Positions 20,173-59,230 of a stretch of DNA of 64,000 bases are shown in pieces. The stretch is taken from assembly GCA_037138755.1 (NCBI GenBank), contig JBAXHT010000001.1, positions 1,955,805-2,019,804 of the forward strand, written 5' to 3'. The position numbers and the translations under genes were made by a program. The notes under the pieces were generated by a model. That model was given only the letters and a program-made list of their open reading frames with translations, was not told where the DNA came from and ran no database searches. Every line of letters begins with the position of its first letter. Position 1 is the stretch's first letter. The stretch is from Armatimonadota bacterium (GTDB lineage Bacteria > Armatimonadota > Fimbriimonadia > Fimbriimonadales > Fimbriimonadaceae).

Positions 20173-20209
20173 GTATGTCTGAAGGTAGTCTTTGCGAAGG
20201 ACATCAAAA

Positions 20210-21580
20210 ATGCAGCTCGCTTCAGATTCTCCCGGTTCCGAGAAGCTCAGAAAGTGGCTAGTTGCGTTTCTTTGTCTCGTTTTTGGCTTATCGATTATTG
20301 CTGCAATTTTGATGCCGGCTGAAAATCAAATCATGGGAGACGGCAAGCAGTACTTCGCCCAAACTAGGTCTCTTGTATTTGACCACGACATGGACATCAA
20401 GAATGACTTGATTGACTCCGGTGTTGAGCCGACGCTTAAGCCGAACGGAATGGCAAAAATCTCCTTTGCCTGCGGTGCACCGTTACTATGGATTCCGGGG
20501 TTTTATCTGTCTGACTTAGCCGCGAAAAAGTTCGATCCCTCTGCTGCAACTGGGCTCAGTAAGTGGTACACAGTTCCCGCCAGGATTGCAAGTTCGGCCG
20601 TCGGAGTGATTGCTTTTTTCCTTGCCTTCTTAGTGCTCCGGTCGAGAGTGTCTGAGAGAGTCGCTGCGCTATCAGTCGCAACGATTGCATTAGCTGGAAA
20701 TCAACTAGAGTCCATCATACTGGATCCTGCAAATTCTCATACGATGTCAATGTTTGCCACATCGTTGTTCCTTTACGTTTTGCTGATAGGCAAGTTTCGA
20801 AATGACCACACCCGATTTGCGGCTATCGGTCTAACGATCGGTCTTTGCTTCCTGGCGCGTTGGCAGGAAGTGTTCTTTATAGTGGTTCCCATTGCCGAGC
20901 TCGGAGCGAATGTTATCCGAAAGAAACTCAACGTCCTTAGCGGGATTAAGTTGGCGAGCATCATGGTTACAGCAATGCTTATAGTCAGCTTCCCTCAACT
21001 CAAGATTTTTGACGTTGTTCAAGGAAGCTACTTCAAGAGTCCTCAGGGTTCGGACTTCCTGTTTTTTACTGACCCGAAAATGCTCCAAGTCCTGTTTAGT
21101 CCCTATCATGGACTGTTCCTGTGGCATCCAATTTTCTTCGTTAGCTTGCTTGGGCTTCCGATCCTATTCCGAAAGGATCGATTGTTCTGTTGCTCTCTGA
21201 TCATCGTTTTCTTGATGCAGTTGTATCTGAATTCTGTCGTTCTGGACTGGAGCGGAACGGCCGGGTTCGGGCATCGTCGGTTTTTCGGGCAGTTCCCCGT
21301 CTTCGTCCTGCTTTTAGGGTTCGTTATCGAGAAGATGACGGCGAGAAACCTATGGGTTCTCGCCTCGATACTTTTTGTGCTTAACGTCTTCTCTTGGCTA
21401 CAACTACGGCTCAGATACATCAGCACGTACAAGCCACCCACGGTCGCGGAGGCGACCTATGAGCGATTTCTGGTACCCGTCCGTGCTTTCCAACGAGTCA
21501 AGGCTTTTGGCTTAAGAGGCATTCGCATGGAAGAAGAATCTGATCCGAACTTCTCGCTCTACGACGTCCATCGAAGGTAG
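20210..21580 (+). CDS. Polytopic membrane protein, GT39-like candidate
   Basis: 456 residues from the ATG preceded by GAAGG; an in-frame TTG at 20192 is a weaker start. About ten membrane helices. The first outer loop has IMGDGKQYFAQT, an aspartate just after helix 1 as in GT-C fold glycosyltransferases that use polyprenyl-phosphate sugars, and a late loop carries GFGHRRFFGQFP. It may move a sugar onto an envelope acceptor; this is inference. It is the second such protein in the window (compare 7765-9129), and no operon partner is evident. Confidence 0.8.
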   Translation: MQLASDSPGSEKLRKWLVAFLCLVFGLSIIAAILMPAENQIMGDGKQYFAQTRSLVFDHDMDIKNDLIDSGVEPTLKPNGMAKISFACGAPLLWIPGFYLSDLAAKKFDPSAATGLSKWYTVPARIASSAVGVIAFFLAFLVLRSRVSERVAALSVATIALAGNQLESIILDPANSHTMSMFATSLFLYVLLIGKFRNDHTRFAAIGLTIGLCFLARWQEVFFIVVPIAELGANVIRKKLNVLSGIKLASIMVTAMLIVSFPQLKIFDVVQGSYFKSPQGSDFLFFTDPKMLQVLFSPYHGLFLWHPIFFVSLLGLPILFRKDRLFCCSLIIVFLMQLYLNSVVLDWSGTAGFGHRRFFGQFPVFVLLLGFVIEKMTARNLWVLASILFVLNVFSWLQLRLRYISTYKPPTVAEATYERFLVPVRAFQRVKAFGLRGIRMEEESDPNFSLYDVHRR

Positions 21581-21611: not shown

Positions 21612-21938
21612 ATGCGCTGCAGAGCCTATACTCTAAATGTGTCCGACTTGCAGGAATTGCTTATTGATGTTGTCAAGGGGATCCCTGCTGGGTCGGTAAT
21701 GTCTTACGGAGACGTCGGGGCGATTATCGGCACCAGCGGACGCCAAGTCGGGCGGATGATGGCTCGGCTGGAGGGGAAGGAGGTGCCATGGTGGCGAGTT
21801 TGCAACGCCCGAGGGGAGTTTCCGATTAGTAAGCGGAATCCGATGTTTGAGAATGAGCAGCGGCAGCGGTTGGAGGAAGAGGGGGTTTCGTTTTTAGAGT
21901 CGGGGCGAGTGGATATGGCTCGGGCGCGCATGGTTTAG
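21612..21938 (+). CDS. Alkyltransferase-like protein (MGMT C-domain, no active-site cysteine)
   Basis: 108 residues. The DNA-binding domain of O6-alkylguanine-DNA alkyltransferase is recognisable (IPAGSVMSYGDVGAIIGTSG, then RQVGRMMARLEG). The reactive PCHR motif is replaced by PWWRV at residues 59-63, so it cannot accept alkyl groups. Alkyltransferase-like (ATL) proteins bind O6-alkylguanine, flip it out and recruit nucleotide-excision repair. A GTG at 21639 would give a start closer to the domain edge and is a real alternative. Confidence 0.9.
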   Translation: MRCRAYTLNVSDLQELLIDVVKGIPAGSVMSYGDVGAIIGTSGRQVGRMMARLEGKEVPWWRVCNARGEFPISKRNPMFENEQRQRLEEEGVSFLESGRVDMARARMV

Positions 21939-22079
21939 CCTTTTCCTCAACTCCTCACCTGTGAAATATACGAGCTTTGTACTGCTAATTGTGCCGGGTT
22001 CGAACCTGCAATGTGTACCAGCCAGTAAATGTATCGTAGTCTTGAGTCAGGGGTTCATCGGAGAATCCCCCGGAAAGCT

Positions 22080-22883
22080 ATGAAAACTTTGATTGTAGGA
22101 GCATTTGCTCTCTTAGGCGTATCGGCATTTGGGCAGACAGTTCTGTCAGCGGCATCGACTCCGGGAGATGCAGTGACAGCGAACGGAGCGACCGGAACAC
22201 TAGGATGGACGTACAATGACGTTCAGGCAGGAGCCACGGCGGGCATCAATACCATGTTTGCTCGGAACGGCAATGCTTCGATGGTTTAATAGTTCAACGG
22301 AAGCACCACAGCGAAGGCAGACATCCTGCAGCTCAATCCTAATGGATCAGGCGGATTCAATCCAATGGGTTCGCTCAGCAACCTAACGGCATGGGGTTAC
22401 GAGAGCTACATGGACGGTTCATCGGCAGTTCAGTTCCACGCTTCGGCCCGACTCGTGCTTGCTGGAAACCTGTTCTCATTCAACCAACTCGTTTTTGATT
22501 CGGCATTCACATCCGCGAACACTTGGGAGCAGAATACGATTACCGATTCGAGCTTGGTTTGGTTGTCGCGAGCGGTCACGATCGGCGCAACGATCTATGG
22601 TGGCAACACGGGCACCCAGGCGATCCAGTCGAATCCTATGGCTCTCGGCACCCTGAAAGGCCTACTCGATAGTGGCGGAAACTCGACCGCAGTTTACGGC
22701 TTCAACATCGGTGCGGGCAGCGGAGTTAACGGAACCTGGACTGGCGCTGCGGACACCCTCAGCTACCGGTTTGGAACGGGACCAGTGCAGACGTACAACT
22801 TCGAAGCAGTTCCAGAGCCAGCTTCGATGGCGGCACTCGGAATGGGTGCATTGGCACTTCTTCGACGACGCAAGAAGAGCTGA
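22080..22883 (+). pseudogene. PEP-CTERM sorted protein interrupted by tandem in-frame stops TAA TAG
   Basis: The frame opens at 22080 behind CCCGGAAAG with a signal peptide (MKTLIVGAFALLGVSAFGQ), reaches TAA TAG at 22287-22292 after 69 codons, and then stays open in the same frame for 197 more codons. It ends in an intact PEP-CTERM signal: VPEP, a hydrophobic stretch, then LLRRRKKS. Both halves have the same glycine/threonine-rich secreted character and no length change is needed to join them. The two stops would be CAA CAG (Gln Gln) if each C were read for T. The downstream half has no signal peptide of its own. Recent inactivation is simplest; readthrough or sequence error are alternatives. 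Confidence 0.75.
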
Positions 22884-22902
22884 TCCTTCTCATTTGAGCA
22901 CG

Positions 22903-22936
22903 AAATGCCCCTACTTGTATAGGGGCATTTTGGTTT
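22903..22936 (+). terminator. Rho-independent terminator after the PEP-CTERM gene
   Basis: Perfect 11-base stem AAATGCCCCTA / TAGGGGCATTT with loop CTTGTA, followed by TTGGTTT. It lies 19 bases after the PEP-CTERM stop, so transcription still seems to be delimited as for a live gene. Confidence 0.85.
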
Positions 22937-23009
22937 GGTTACCGAGTCTCACTGAGCCTGGTTCCGCGCTTCGTTGGAACGTCGGCAGCAGCGGACTGAT
23001 CGTCCCCTC

Positions 23010-24020
23010 TCAGAACGTGTAGCCGTTGCTTTGCAGAACGGACTTAATGGTTCCTTCCATTCCGCCGGCTTCGGCGTGAACGACCTTGCCTTCCCGATCA
23101 ACCACGATCATGGTTGGGAATTGAGTCACTCCGGCCGCTTGAGTCAAGTTCGTCGTGTCAAAGACCGTCGAAACCGGGGTTCGGCGTCCTCGGAAATATT
23201 GATTCGCCGGCTGGCTTTCGGAGTTGACGGCGATGACGTTAAGCTTTGGACGCGACTTGCGAGCAAGATCCCCGAGGGCAATCATCGCATCATTTGAAGC
23301 CGCTTGGCTCGCTCTGGTGTAGACGACTACGGTTAGGATCGAATTGCTGAAACGTCCGGCGAGAGCCTTATCGGATCCCCCCTCAAGAACGATTCCCACC
23401 TTCGGAAGACCGCTTGTCACGAAGGGAACTTGTCGTTCGCCCGGCTTAGCAGAAAAGGTGAACAGATTGTTACCAAGTCTCGGTTCAAGAGTTACCTGCT
23501 TGAACACGCCTTTGTACTCGACTCCGCCGACGATCATGGTGAACCCGGAAGGTAGAGCCGTAGTCGGATTGAGATACCGCTTTGTCGATCCGAACTCCAT
23601 TTGTACCGAATTAACACCTTCGAATTGCGTTACAACAGGAGAACCGGTGCCCGTGAATAACGCGACCGTGCGGTCTGCGATCGACTTGGACTGAACGATT
23701 GGTTCGAACGGGGTGAGGAGAGGGAACCCGGTTGATCGACTATCAAAGACTTGATAAGTCATCTTGGGGATGTCTCGAACGTACTTGTAGCGGCCGTCGA
23801 AGATCTCTTCTGAACCGGTGGTAGATACTTTGAACTGACCCTCTCGGTTGACTGCAAACTGCGCCTCACCGACACCAACGGCGCCTCCACTGAGCGAAAG
23901 GCTGAAAACGCCAGCGGCTGCGTTGGCATTTTGAAGTTGCCGGAGGTAGCGTGTCGCGACCTCTTGGGCGTCTATTTGTTGCCCAGTTCCGAGTGCGAGG
24001 ATAAATGCCGATGTAATCAT
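23010..24020 (-). CDS. Exported two-domain protein: lipoprotein-carrier-like N-domain plus cysteine-less thioredoxin fold
   Basis: 336 residues with a short signal peptide-like start. Residues 20-190 resemble DUF2092/LolA-type beta domains (EVATRYLRQLQNANA, then QVFDSRSTGFPLL). Residues 205-336 form a thioredoxin/TlpA fold: SILTVVVYTRASQAAS is where the active site belongs, but CxxC is replaced by residues without cysteine at about 236-240, while the cis-proline TQFPTMIVVDREGKVV is kept. It cannot be a dithiol oxidoreductase; a binding or chaperone role is possible. It converges on the PEP-CTERM gene and is divergent from groES. Confidence 0.8.
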   Translation of the reverse strand: MITSAFILALGTGQQIDAQEVATRYLRQLQNANAAAGVFSLSLSGGAVGVGEAQFAVNREGQFKVSTTGSEEIFDGRYKYVRDIPKMTYQVFDSRSTGFPLLTPFEPIVQSKSIADRTVALFTGTGSPVVTQFEGVNSVQMEFGSTKRYLNPTTALPSGFTMIVGGVEYKGVFKQVTLEPRLGNNLFTFSAKPGERQVPFVTSGLPKVGIVLEGGSDKALAGRFSNSILTVVVYTRASQAASNDAMIALGDLARKSRPKLNVIAVNSESQPANQYFRGRRTPVSTVFDTTNLTQAAGVTQFPTMIVVDREGKVVHAEAGGMEGTIKSVLQSNGYTF

Positions 24021-50524: not shown

Positions 50525-50621
50525 ATTGATGGAATGATTGGCACGATTTTAGCGTTAAAACGAGTGAGAATTTGATTTGGAGCAGGTCGCAACACTAGAA
50601 GCAAAGCAAGAGAAAGGCTCA

Positions 50622-51512
50622 ATGCTGGACGATGTCCAGGCGGTTTTGCGGCGCGTTCTTGACTGGGTCAAAGACGGAGGGCTTGCTCGCGTCTCTCGGC
50701 ATGAGCTTTTTATTCCTTCGGTAGTCGGTCTGATCGGGCTCAGCCTTATGTTCTGGCCGCTTTATCGCCAGGTCTACAAGATGTGGAACGAGGACGACAA
50801 CTACTCTCACATCATCCTGGTTCCGTTTTTGATCATTTGGCAGCTTCACCGGCGACGAGACATGTTTGTTGAGTCCGCGCGGAAAAGCGCGCCGATGGTT
50901 CTTCTTCTCCTGGCTCCGCTGGCTTACTTCCAATACATCGCGTTCATCGGCGACTGGTGGGCCATGCAGTCCATTTGCTTCATTGCAGCGGTCTTCGGGG
51001 TCGTTTGGACGCTGTTTGGTGGGCACTGGGCATGGAGGGCACTACTGCCGATCCTCTTCATCGTCTTCATGCTCCCAATTGCAAGCTCGTATCTTGACGC
51101 GAACACTAACGAGTTGCAAATCGCCTCGACGACGGTTGCTGAGAAGCTGTTAGCGTTGACCGGATTCGGTCCCACTCGCCTCGATCCAACCTCAATTCAA
51201 CTCAACTCTTACGCTTTGAACATAGCAGTGCCTTGTTCGGGTCTAAAGCTTCTGGTGGCCGTGACCTGCTTTACATGTCACTTCATCCTATTCGCCCGTT
51301 CGACGATCAACTTCAATTTCATGATGTTGCTGATGATCGTTCCCCTTTGCTTGCTAATGAATGGCCTTCGCATCGCGATGATCGGGATGGTCGGCGAACA
51401 ATGGGGGGCTCCGGCTGGTGCCGCCTTCCACGACTGGAGCGGCTACATCATGCTCCTCATTTGCTTCTGGATTATCTTCAAGGCAGCGAGACTGCTGGGA
51501 TGGAAAGAATGA
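50622..51512 (+). CDS. Exosortase (EpsH-type), PEP-CTERM sorting transpeptidase
   Basis: 296 residues from ATG behind AGAAAGG; a TTG at 50577 would add 15 residues. About eight membrane helices. The catalytic residues expected of the exosortase family are all present: Cys205 in VPCSGLKLL, Arg250 in MNGLRIAMIG, and His270 in AFHDWSGY. Exosortases cleave PEP-CTERM signals at the cytoplasmic membrane and probably attach the protein to surface polymer. Location at the end of a polysaccharide locus and coupling to epsI (ATGA) is the classic EpsH arrangement. Confidence 0.94.
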   Translation: MLDDVQAVLRRVLDWVKDGGLARVSRHELFIPSVVGLIGLSLMFWPLYRQVYKMWNEDDNYSHIILVPFLIIWQLHRRRDMFVESARKSAPMVLLLLAPLAYFQYIAFIGDWWAMQSICFIAAVFGVVWTLFGGHWAWRALLPILFIVFMLPIASSYLDANTNELQIASTTVAEKLLALTGFGPTRLDPTSIQLNSYALNIAVPCSGLKLLVAVTCFTCHFILFARSTINFNFMMLLMIVPLCLLMNGLRIAMIGMVGEQWGAPAGAAFHDWSGYIMLLICFWIIFKAARLLGWKE

Positions 51513-52150
51513 AAAAAACCCTCTGGATTCTGTCGGGACTGCTCACAACCATTGGCTTGGGTTACAACTTCGCGCCAAGACCGCCGGAAAAGATTCTCAC
51601 CGAAGACCAAGTCATCGCGATGCTGCCCACAAAGGTCGGTCGCTTTCAGCCGATGCTCAAGGACGGCGAGAAAGTGTCCTACAAGATGGACAAGAGCTCA
51701 TACGACATTCTCAAGCCATGGGGGATCTGTGCTCGAGTTTTCGTGAACGGCAACGAGTCCTATGATGTCGTAGCGATCGCGAGCAACAGCAAAGAAAGCT
51801 TCCACGATCCCCAGATCTGCTTCTCAGCCCAAGGCTGGCGACTCTCAAACCAACGAGAAGACGTGATCAAAACCAAGACGCACGGCGATATTCCAATCAC
51901 CCTTGTGGATATGGAGCAGGGCGGAAACGCCCGCGTTGCAATGTACTTCTTCCGATTGAACAAGGGCTACTACGGAAACATGTCGAAGGTGAAGCGCGAC
52001 ATGCTCATGTACTTGTTCACGAATCGAGCAAAAGACGAAGGCGCCTTCATCCGCGTGATTCCGACCGGTACTGTCGATGTCGCGAAGATGAAGCTCTTCG
52101 TTGCCGATTGGGTCGACGCCGCGAATCAGACAAGCAAAGGATACTACTGA
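51509..52150 (+). CDS. epsI: EpsI-family exosortase-associated protein
   Basis: 213 residues from the ATG overlapping the exosortase stop; the frame extending back to 51233 reads through the exosortase gene. One N-terminal membrane segment (residues 5-20) is followed by the EpsI domain: MLPTKVGRFQPM, then DPQICFSAQGWRL, which corresponds to the CxxxxGW motif of the family, and FFRLNKGYYGN. EpsI proteins occur fused to or directly after exosortases in polysaccharide loci and have an unknown biochemical role. It ends the locus. Confidence 0.92.
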   Translation: MKKTLWILSGLLTTIGLGYNFAPRPPEKILTEDQVIAMLPTKVGRFQPMLKDGEKVSYKMDKSSYDILKPWGICARVFVNGNESYDVVAIASNSKESFHDPQICFSAQGWRLSNQREDVIKTKTHGDIPITLVDMEQGGNARVAMYFFRLNKGYYGNMSKVKRDMLMYLFTNRAKDEGAFIRVIPTGTVDVAKMKLFVADWVDAANQTSKGYY

Positions 52151-58762: not shown

Positions 58763-59080
58763 GATTCTTTGTGGGTAGGGGTGGGTAGGCGGTTATGAGT
58801 CTTGAGTCTTGAGTTTTCTCGATGGGATCGCTTGCGGACGAGAATCTTGCTCATCACCTACTAGGCGACTTTGGAGGGGAAAAGTCAACCAGGTGTGGAT
58901 TAGATTGGGGCAATTATTGGCTTGAGGGAGAGGATGTGGGTGCATTCTGGGAAGCTAAATCGGACCTGATGGGAAGGGTTTTGCTGAGGCATGACAGGAG
59001 CAAGCGGTCGTAACGACCGGGACTTCTTGCGAAGTCTTGGAATGCTCTTCGAGCGCGATGCGAGTTATTCTTGCGCTATC

Positions 59081-59230
59081 GGGATTTCGACGTTTCTTGA
59101 GAAAGGTGGTCTGCTTGGGACGGCGCGGTGGATTGCGGGGCACGCGGACAGTAGGAGGACGAAGGGGTATGACCGAAGAGCGACCAAGCTGGAACTGAGC
59201 GAGATTGCTCGGGTGCGAGACGAGCGTTAG
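59081..59230 (+). pseudogene. C-terminal remnant of a tyrosine recombinase/integrase
   Basis: The last 45-50 codons of an open frame (from 58991) read as the end of a phage-type integrase catalytic domain: STFLEKGG, WIAGHADSRRTKGYDRR, then LELSEIARVR. The conserved histidine of GHA and the nucleophilic tyrosine are nine residues apart, as in intact enzymes, and YDRR-x-LxLxE-I-R is the common C-terminal pattern of this group. The catalytic Arg/Lys part and the N-terminal DNA-binding domain are gone, so it is a fragment. It indicates past integration of a mobile element after trpF. Confidence 0.8.

Follow-up and report, generated by a model that had tools for sequence, protein, structure and literature searches.

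Surface proteins of the PEP-CTERM/exosortase (EpsH) systems (PF07589, TIGR02595 and PF09721) have in common with the product of the gene described here a signal-peptide-like N terminus and a C-terminal VPEPAS-transmembrane-RRRKK arrangement, and the exosortase is the enzyme expected to process them. The locus described here lies in a stretch of 64,000 nucleotides (hereafter the window, all positions being counted from its first letter) of an Armatimonadota bacterium of the genus Fimbriimonas, whose genome is a 3.27-Mb draft of 20 contigs, 97% complete. As in the described systems, an exosortase (PF09721, E = 4.7e-43 at window positions 50733-51494) and an EpsI-type DUF3485 protein are encoded in the same window. 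The DUF3485 gene, at 51509-52150 (+), directly follows that of the exosortase, with which it overlaps by ATGA, and the pair, spanning 50577-52150, is likely to process the PEP-CTERM proteins of this genome. The genome has about 35 PEP-CTERM matches, including the gene that concerns us, located 28 kb from the exosortase. The initial annotation considered it a PEP-CTERM gene, in agreement with the scores obtained for its C-terminal part with PF07589 (28.9 bits against a cut-off of 20.7) and TIGR02595 (25.8 bits against a cut-off of 16), as well as with the presence of a PEP motif, a hydrophobic helix and a basic tail. Unlike the described proteins, however, this one has no single open frame that includes both the signal peptide and the sorting signal, as TAA TAG separates them, and an anchored product is not expected. 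The features of the locus are as follows.

21612..21938, + strand: flanking gene for an O6-methylguanine DNA methyltransferase DNA-binding-domain (ATL-like) protein
21939..23009, no strand: interval between the ATL-like and redoxin-like genes, of 1071 bases here, with an extra gene (PEP-CTERM), as compared with 25-68 bases in three congeners
22080..22289, + strand: 5′ part of the interrupted PEP-CTERM gene, with ATG, signal-peptide-like N terminus and first beta-sandwich strands, ending at TAA
22282..22296, + strand: +1 frame stretch WFNSS, which fits the family columns in a frameshift-aware alignment (moderate evidence, 3 of 224 controls being as good)
22287..22292, + strand: adjacent in-frame stops TAA TAG, at residues 70-71, inside a predicted strand (67-73)
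22293..22883, + strand: 3′ part, with the remaining beta-sandwich, the PEP-CTERM sorting signal and TGA
22901..22932, + strand: terminator-like hairpin, in a number not above that expected in shuffled sequence
23010..24020, - strand: flanking gene for a redoxin/thioredoxin-like protein
50577..51512, + strand: exosortase (PF09721)

Translation of the window bears out that TAA (22287-22289) and TAG (22290-22292) interrupt one frame, 22080-22883, as initially reported. The translated product starts with MKTLIVGAFALLGVSAFGQ, reads NGNASMV, the two stops and FNGSTTAKAD in its interrupted region, and finishes with VPEPASMAALGMGALALLRRRKKS before the terminal stop. There are 69 residues before the stops (86 with the upstream ATG at 22029 as start), and the frame continues after them without any shift, also as previously described, for 196 sense codons and TGA. 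A profile of the relatives of this protein spans both sides of the stops, from end to end, with E = 4.5e-86. Because of this match and of the PF07589 and TIGR02595 scores above their cut-offs, the frame on either side of TAA TAG is real coding sequence. The two parts are not separate genes, an arrangement that the initial annotation regarded as incompatible with its proposal: in all the relatives there is one gene, and the 3′ part, whose first in-frame ATG is at 22365, has no signal peptide of its own. The remaining signals of the gene had been described as all intact. This holds for the ATG, the signal-peptide-like N terminus and the sorting signal; however, the ribosome site is weak, with only GGAAAG at 2 nt or GGAGAA at 14 nt upstream of the ATG, and terminator-like hairpins are no more numerous than by chance (one found, 1.3 expected in shuffled sequence).

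The closest relatives form an unnamed family of PEP-CTERM proteins from the same order (alignment A3), of about 260-320 aa, with 24-36% identity to the window gene over the whole length, with which they share the motifs GD, Y, GI, GxGS, W, GxGS and FEV-PEP; literature searches returned nothing on this family. The search for a close orthologue covered 20 congeners, 85 genomes from the family and 113 from the order, as well as a collection of genome contigs, and returned nothing above 39% identity. The 29 homologues in the alignment are all single uninterrupted genes, internal stops being present only in the window gene. Besides the two stops in the predicted strand, the window gene differs from its family in having the longest end branch of the tree (1.52, with a median of 0.38) and a site that is geneless in relatives. 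Of the 42 conserved columns it retains 33, only one of the 30 rows having fewer, and this, together with the long branch, fits a relaxed constraint on the sequence. Stops were also flagged in other PEP-CTERM matches (L014, L056 and L109-L116), but wherever these were read they coincided with the normal C-terminal end or lay just ahead of it, and no internal stop was found in the other PEP-CTERM matches of the host genome. Additionally, four sister-family homologues (L095-L098) have a dockerin type I domain at the C terminus, where most others have PEP-CTERM; the beta-sandwich is the same, and its C-terminal module appears to have been swapped.

A structural model of the read-through protein, obtained with 28 sequences (pLDDT 83.5, pTM 0.78), consists of a beta-sandwich with one helix at each terminus, and the positions of TAA TAG cut it in the middle of a predicted strand. 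No sequence match to solved structures was found. The nearest solved folds are the bacterial carbohydrate-binding modules CBM11, CBM28, CBM16 and CBM22, which are weak matches (Foldseek E of about 1e-3 to 1e-2, TM-score of 0.3-0.4 by query and 8-12% identity) and matches of fold only. The gene would accordingly encode a beta-sandwich protein resembling carbohydrate-binding modules by fold, and neither part of the interrupted gene alone would be expected to complete the sandwich.

The place of this gene in the genome is not shared with its relatives. In a close relative, Fimbriimonas sp. MAG D15.bin.35 (G016), whose identity to the window reaches 99% for GroEL, 98% for ClpC and 77% for the redoxin-like protein, the gene order clpC - ATL - redoxin - groES - groEL is the same as in the window, but only 68 bases separate ATL from redoxin and there is no PEP-CTERM gene between them. 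In the more distant congeners G002 and G006, the flanking genes are 25-27 bases apart, with nothing in between. The homologues of the interrupted gene in G002, G006 and G010 sit at other genomic places, and none of the window's neighbour genes was found within the surrounding stretches of 12-13 kb. As the flanking genes adjoin without it in relatives and the congener homologues are located elsewhere, the PEP-CTERM gene would most simply be a lineage-specific gain at the ATL/redoxin place, rather than ancestral there. It is not the only such gene in the vicinity, since a second lineage-specific gene, encoding a 462-aa membrane protein with a weak PMT_2 match (20192-21580, +), lies between clpC and ATL and is missing there in G016. 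A T-loop-like string near 21998 (GGTTCGAACC) turned out on checking not to belong to a tRNA. Elsewhere in the window, a gap without good genes contains an open frame of 79 aa (58991-59230, +) that includes GTARWIAGHADSRRTKGYDRR and resembles by eye the C terminus of a tyrosine recombinase; it has no Pfam match at E 0.01 and is possibly the remnant of a mobile element.

Regarding the origin of the stops, it had been proposed that two C-to-T transitions converted CAA CAG (Gln Gln) into TAA TAG, and that alignment with relatives would reveal whether Gln Gln occurs in them. The alignment argues against this ancestor. At the position of the first stop, all 29 homologues have Phe, Leu, Met or Ile and never Gln, so Gln-Gln is not a likely precursor; the column of the second stop is variable. 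The +1 frame fits the family better. Across the stops it reads W F N S S T, while many relatives have [VA]-[YWH]-[FL]-[NS]-[ST]-S, and a frameshift-aware profile alignment with equal penalties places frame changes at 22281 and 22297-22298, avoiding both stops. This path scores 6.4 bits better than that through the stops (5.1 bits with a profile from the same family only). A per-site value of 3e-5 for WFNSST is overstated, as frame and offset were picked after looking. In the calibrated control, artificial double stops (TAATAG) were put at 224 randomly chosen codon pairs of 16 intact homologues and scored with leave-one-out profiles, and three of them (about 1.3%) did as well as the real one, for which reason the evidence for indels is only moderate. 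Two small indels, which according to the frameshift-aware alignment would be deletions around the stops, are consequently favoured as a best guess at the origin, followed by substitutions. Two adjacent point substitutions, for instance a C-to-T pair, arising in one event or two, would be compatible with the fact that each stop is one change away from several sense codons and with a loop length equal to that of the nearest homologues when the stops are counted as residues. Nevertheless, the residues found at the first position and the better score of the frameshift path, reached by so few of the controls, make this variant of gene inactivation rather doubtful. An in-frame insertion of 6 bases was also considered and ruled out, as the profile gain is only 3 bits and the resulting loop length is absent from the family.

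Inactivation and sequence error had both been put forward initially, and both are still live. We consider it probable, although by no means certain, that the interrupted gene is a recently inactivated pseudogene. It is homologous to 29 intact genes and its frame is disrupted, every other member is uninterrupted, and the family is patchy, with members in 4 of the 20 genomes from the genus and in 28 of the 113 from the order. Additionally, with some 35 PEP-CTERM matches in this genome, losing a single one would be cheap. By contrast, one disruption in 267 codons, with 196 open codons beyond it, represents little decay, the break is known from a single assembly, and the long branch may reflect the divergence of a working gene. 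Little decay implies that the pseudogene is recent or that the sequence is wrong. In the latter case, the gene would be intact in the living organism, with a pair of small indel errors, separated by about 16 bases, or several wrong bases clustered there putting a short stretch out of frame and creating the stops. The +1 frame that fits the family across the stops is what two nearby compensating indels would leave, no other break exists in the rest of the gene, and the genome is a draft of 20 contigs. However, the window is densely and cleanly coding, and neither there nor among the remaining PEP-CTERM genes of the genome was a second broken gene recognised, so the assembly is not generally error-prone and a local error, although a serious contender, is the less likely explanation. 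In any case the observation is ordinary, and its most likely cause is inactivation of the gene or a local error and not a new kind of gene.

Two further options from the initial annotation, readthrough and phase variation, found no support. In-frame stops surrounded by signs of purifying selection have been reported in bacteria (PMC7918605), and the downstream frame is open and family-like, as would be expected if readthrough, or two ribosomal frame changes, yielded the full protein. Against this, the stops are a tandem TAA TAG kept in no homologue, and the code is standard, as initially stated: all three stops are in normal use in the window (TGA 26, TAG 12 and TAA 11 among ORFs of at least 150 aa, so that TAA and TAG end 23 of 49), and the genome has both prfA (RF1), over its cut-off, and an RF2-like gene. 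Phase variation, by which the gene would be reversibly off, would suit a surface-exposed type of protein, but there are no direct or inverted repeats of at least 12 bases in 21900-23010 and no simple-sequence tract at the stops, and hence neither an unstable repeat nor an invertible segment. With these observations, both readthrough and phase variation become very improbable, and a double programmed frameshift, in which the ribosome would slip to the +1 frame for the five codons of WFNSS and back, is the least credible of all.

Under the preferred reading, that of a recently inactivated gene, an extra gene between the ATL-like and redoxin-like genes would have encoded an exported beta-sandwich protein with a PEP-CTERM anchor, the intact product of which would have been exported and then processed by the exosortase. 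A local mutation would later have produced TAA TAG in the coding frame. The first product would then comprise only 69 aa and break off halfway through a beta-strand, and the 3′ part, without a start bearing a signal peptide, would give no anchored protein.

As regards method, a pair of adjacent stops that resembles the outcome of two transitions may instead have been left by two small indels close to each other, and the two cases can be better told apart when the adjacent frame is compared with a family profile and a proper control is included. For the organism, we infer that the loss is real, recent and of little consequence: one of about 35 exosortase substrates has apparently been lost, which matters little and is in line with the way in which surface proteins are commonly gained and lost.
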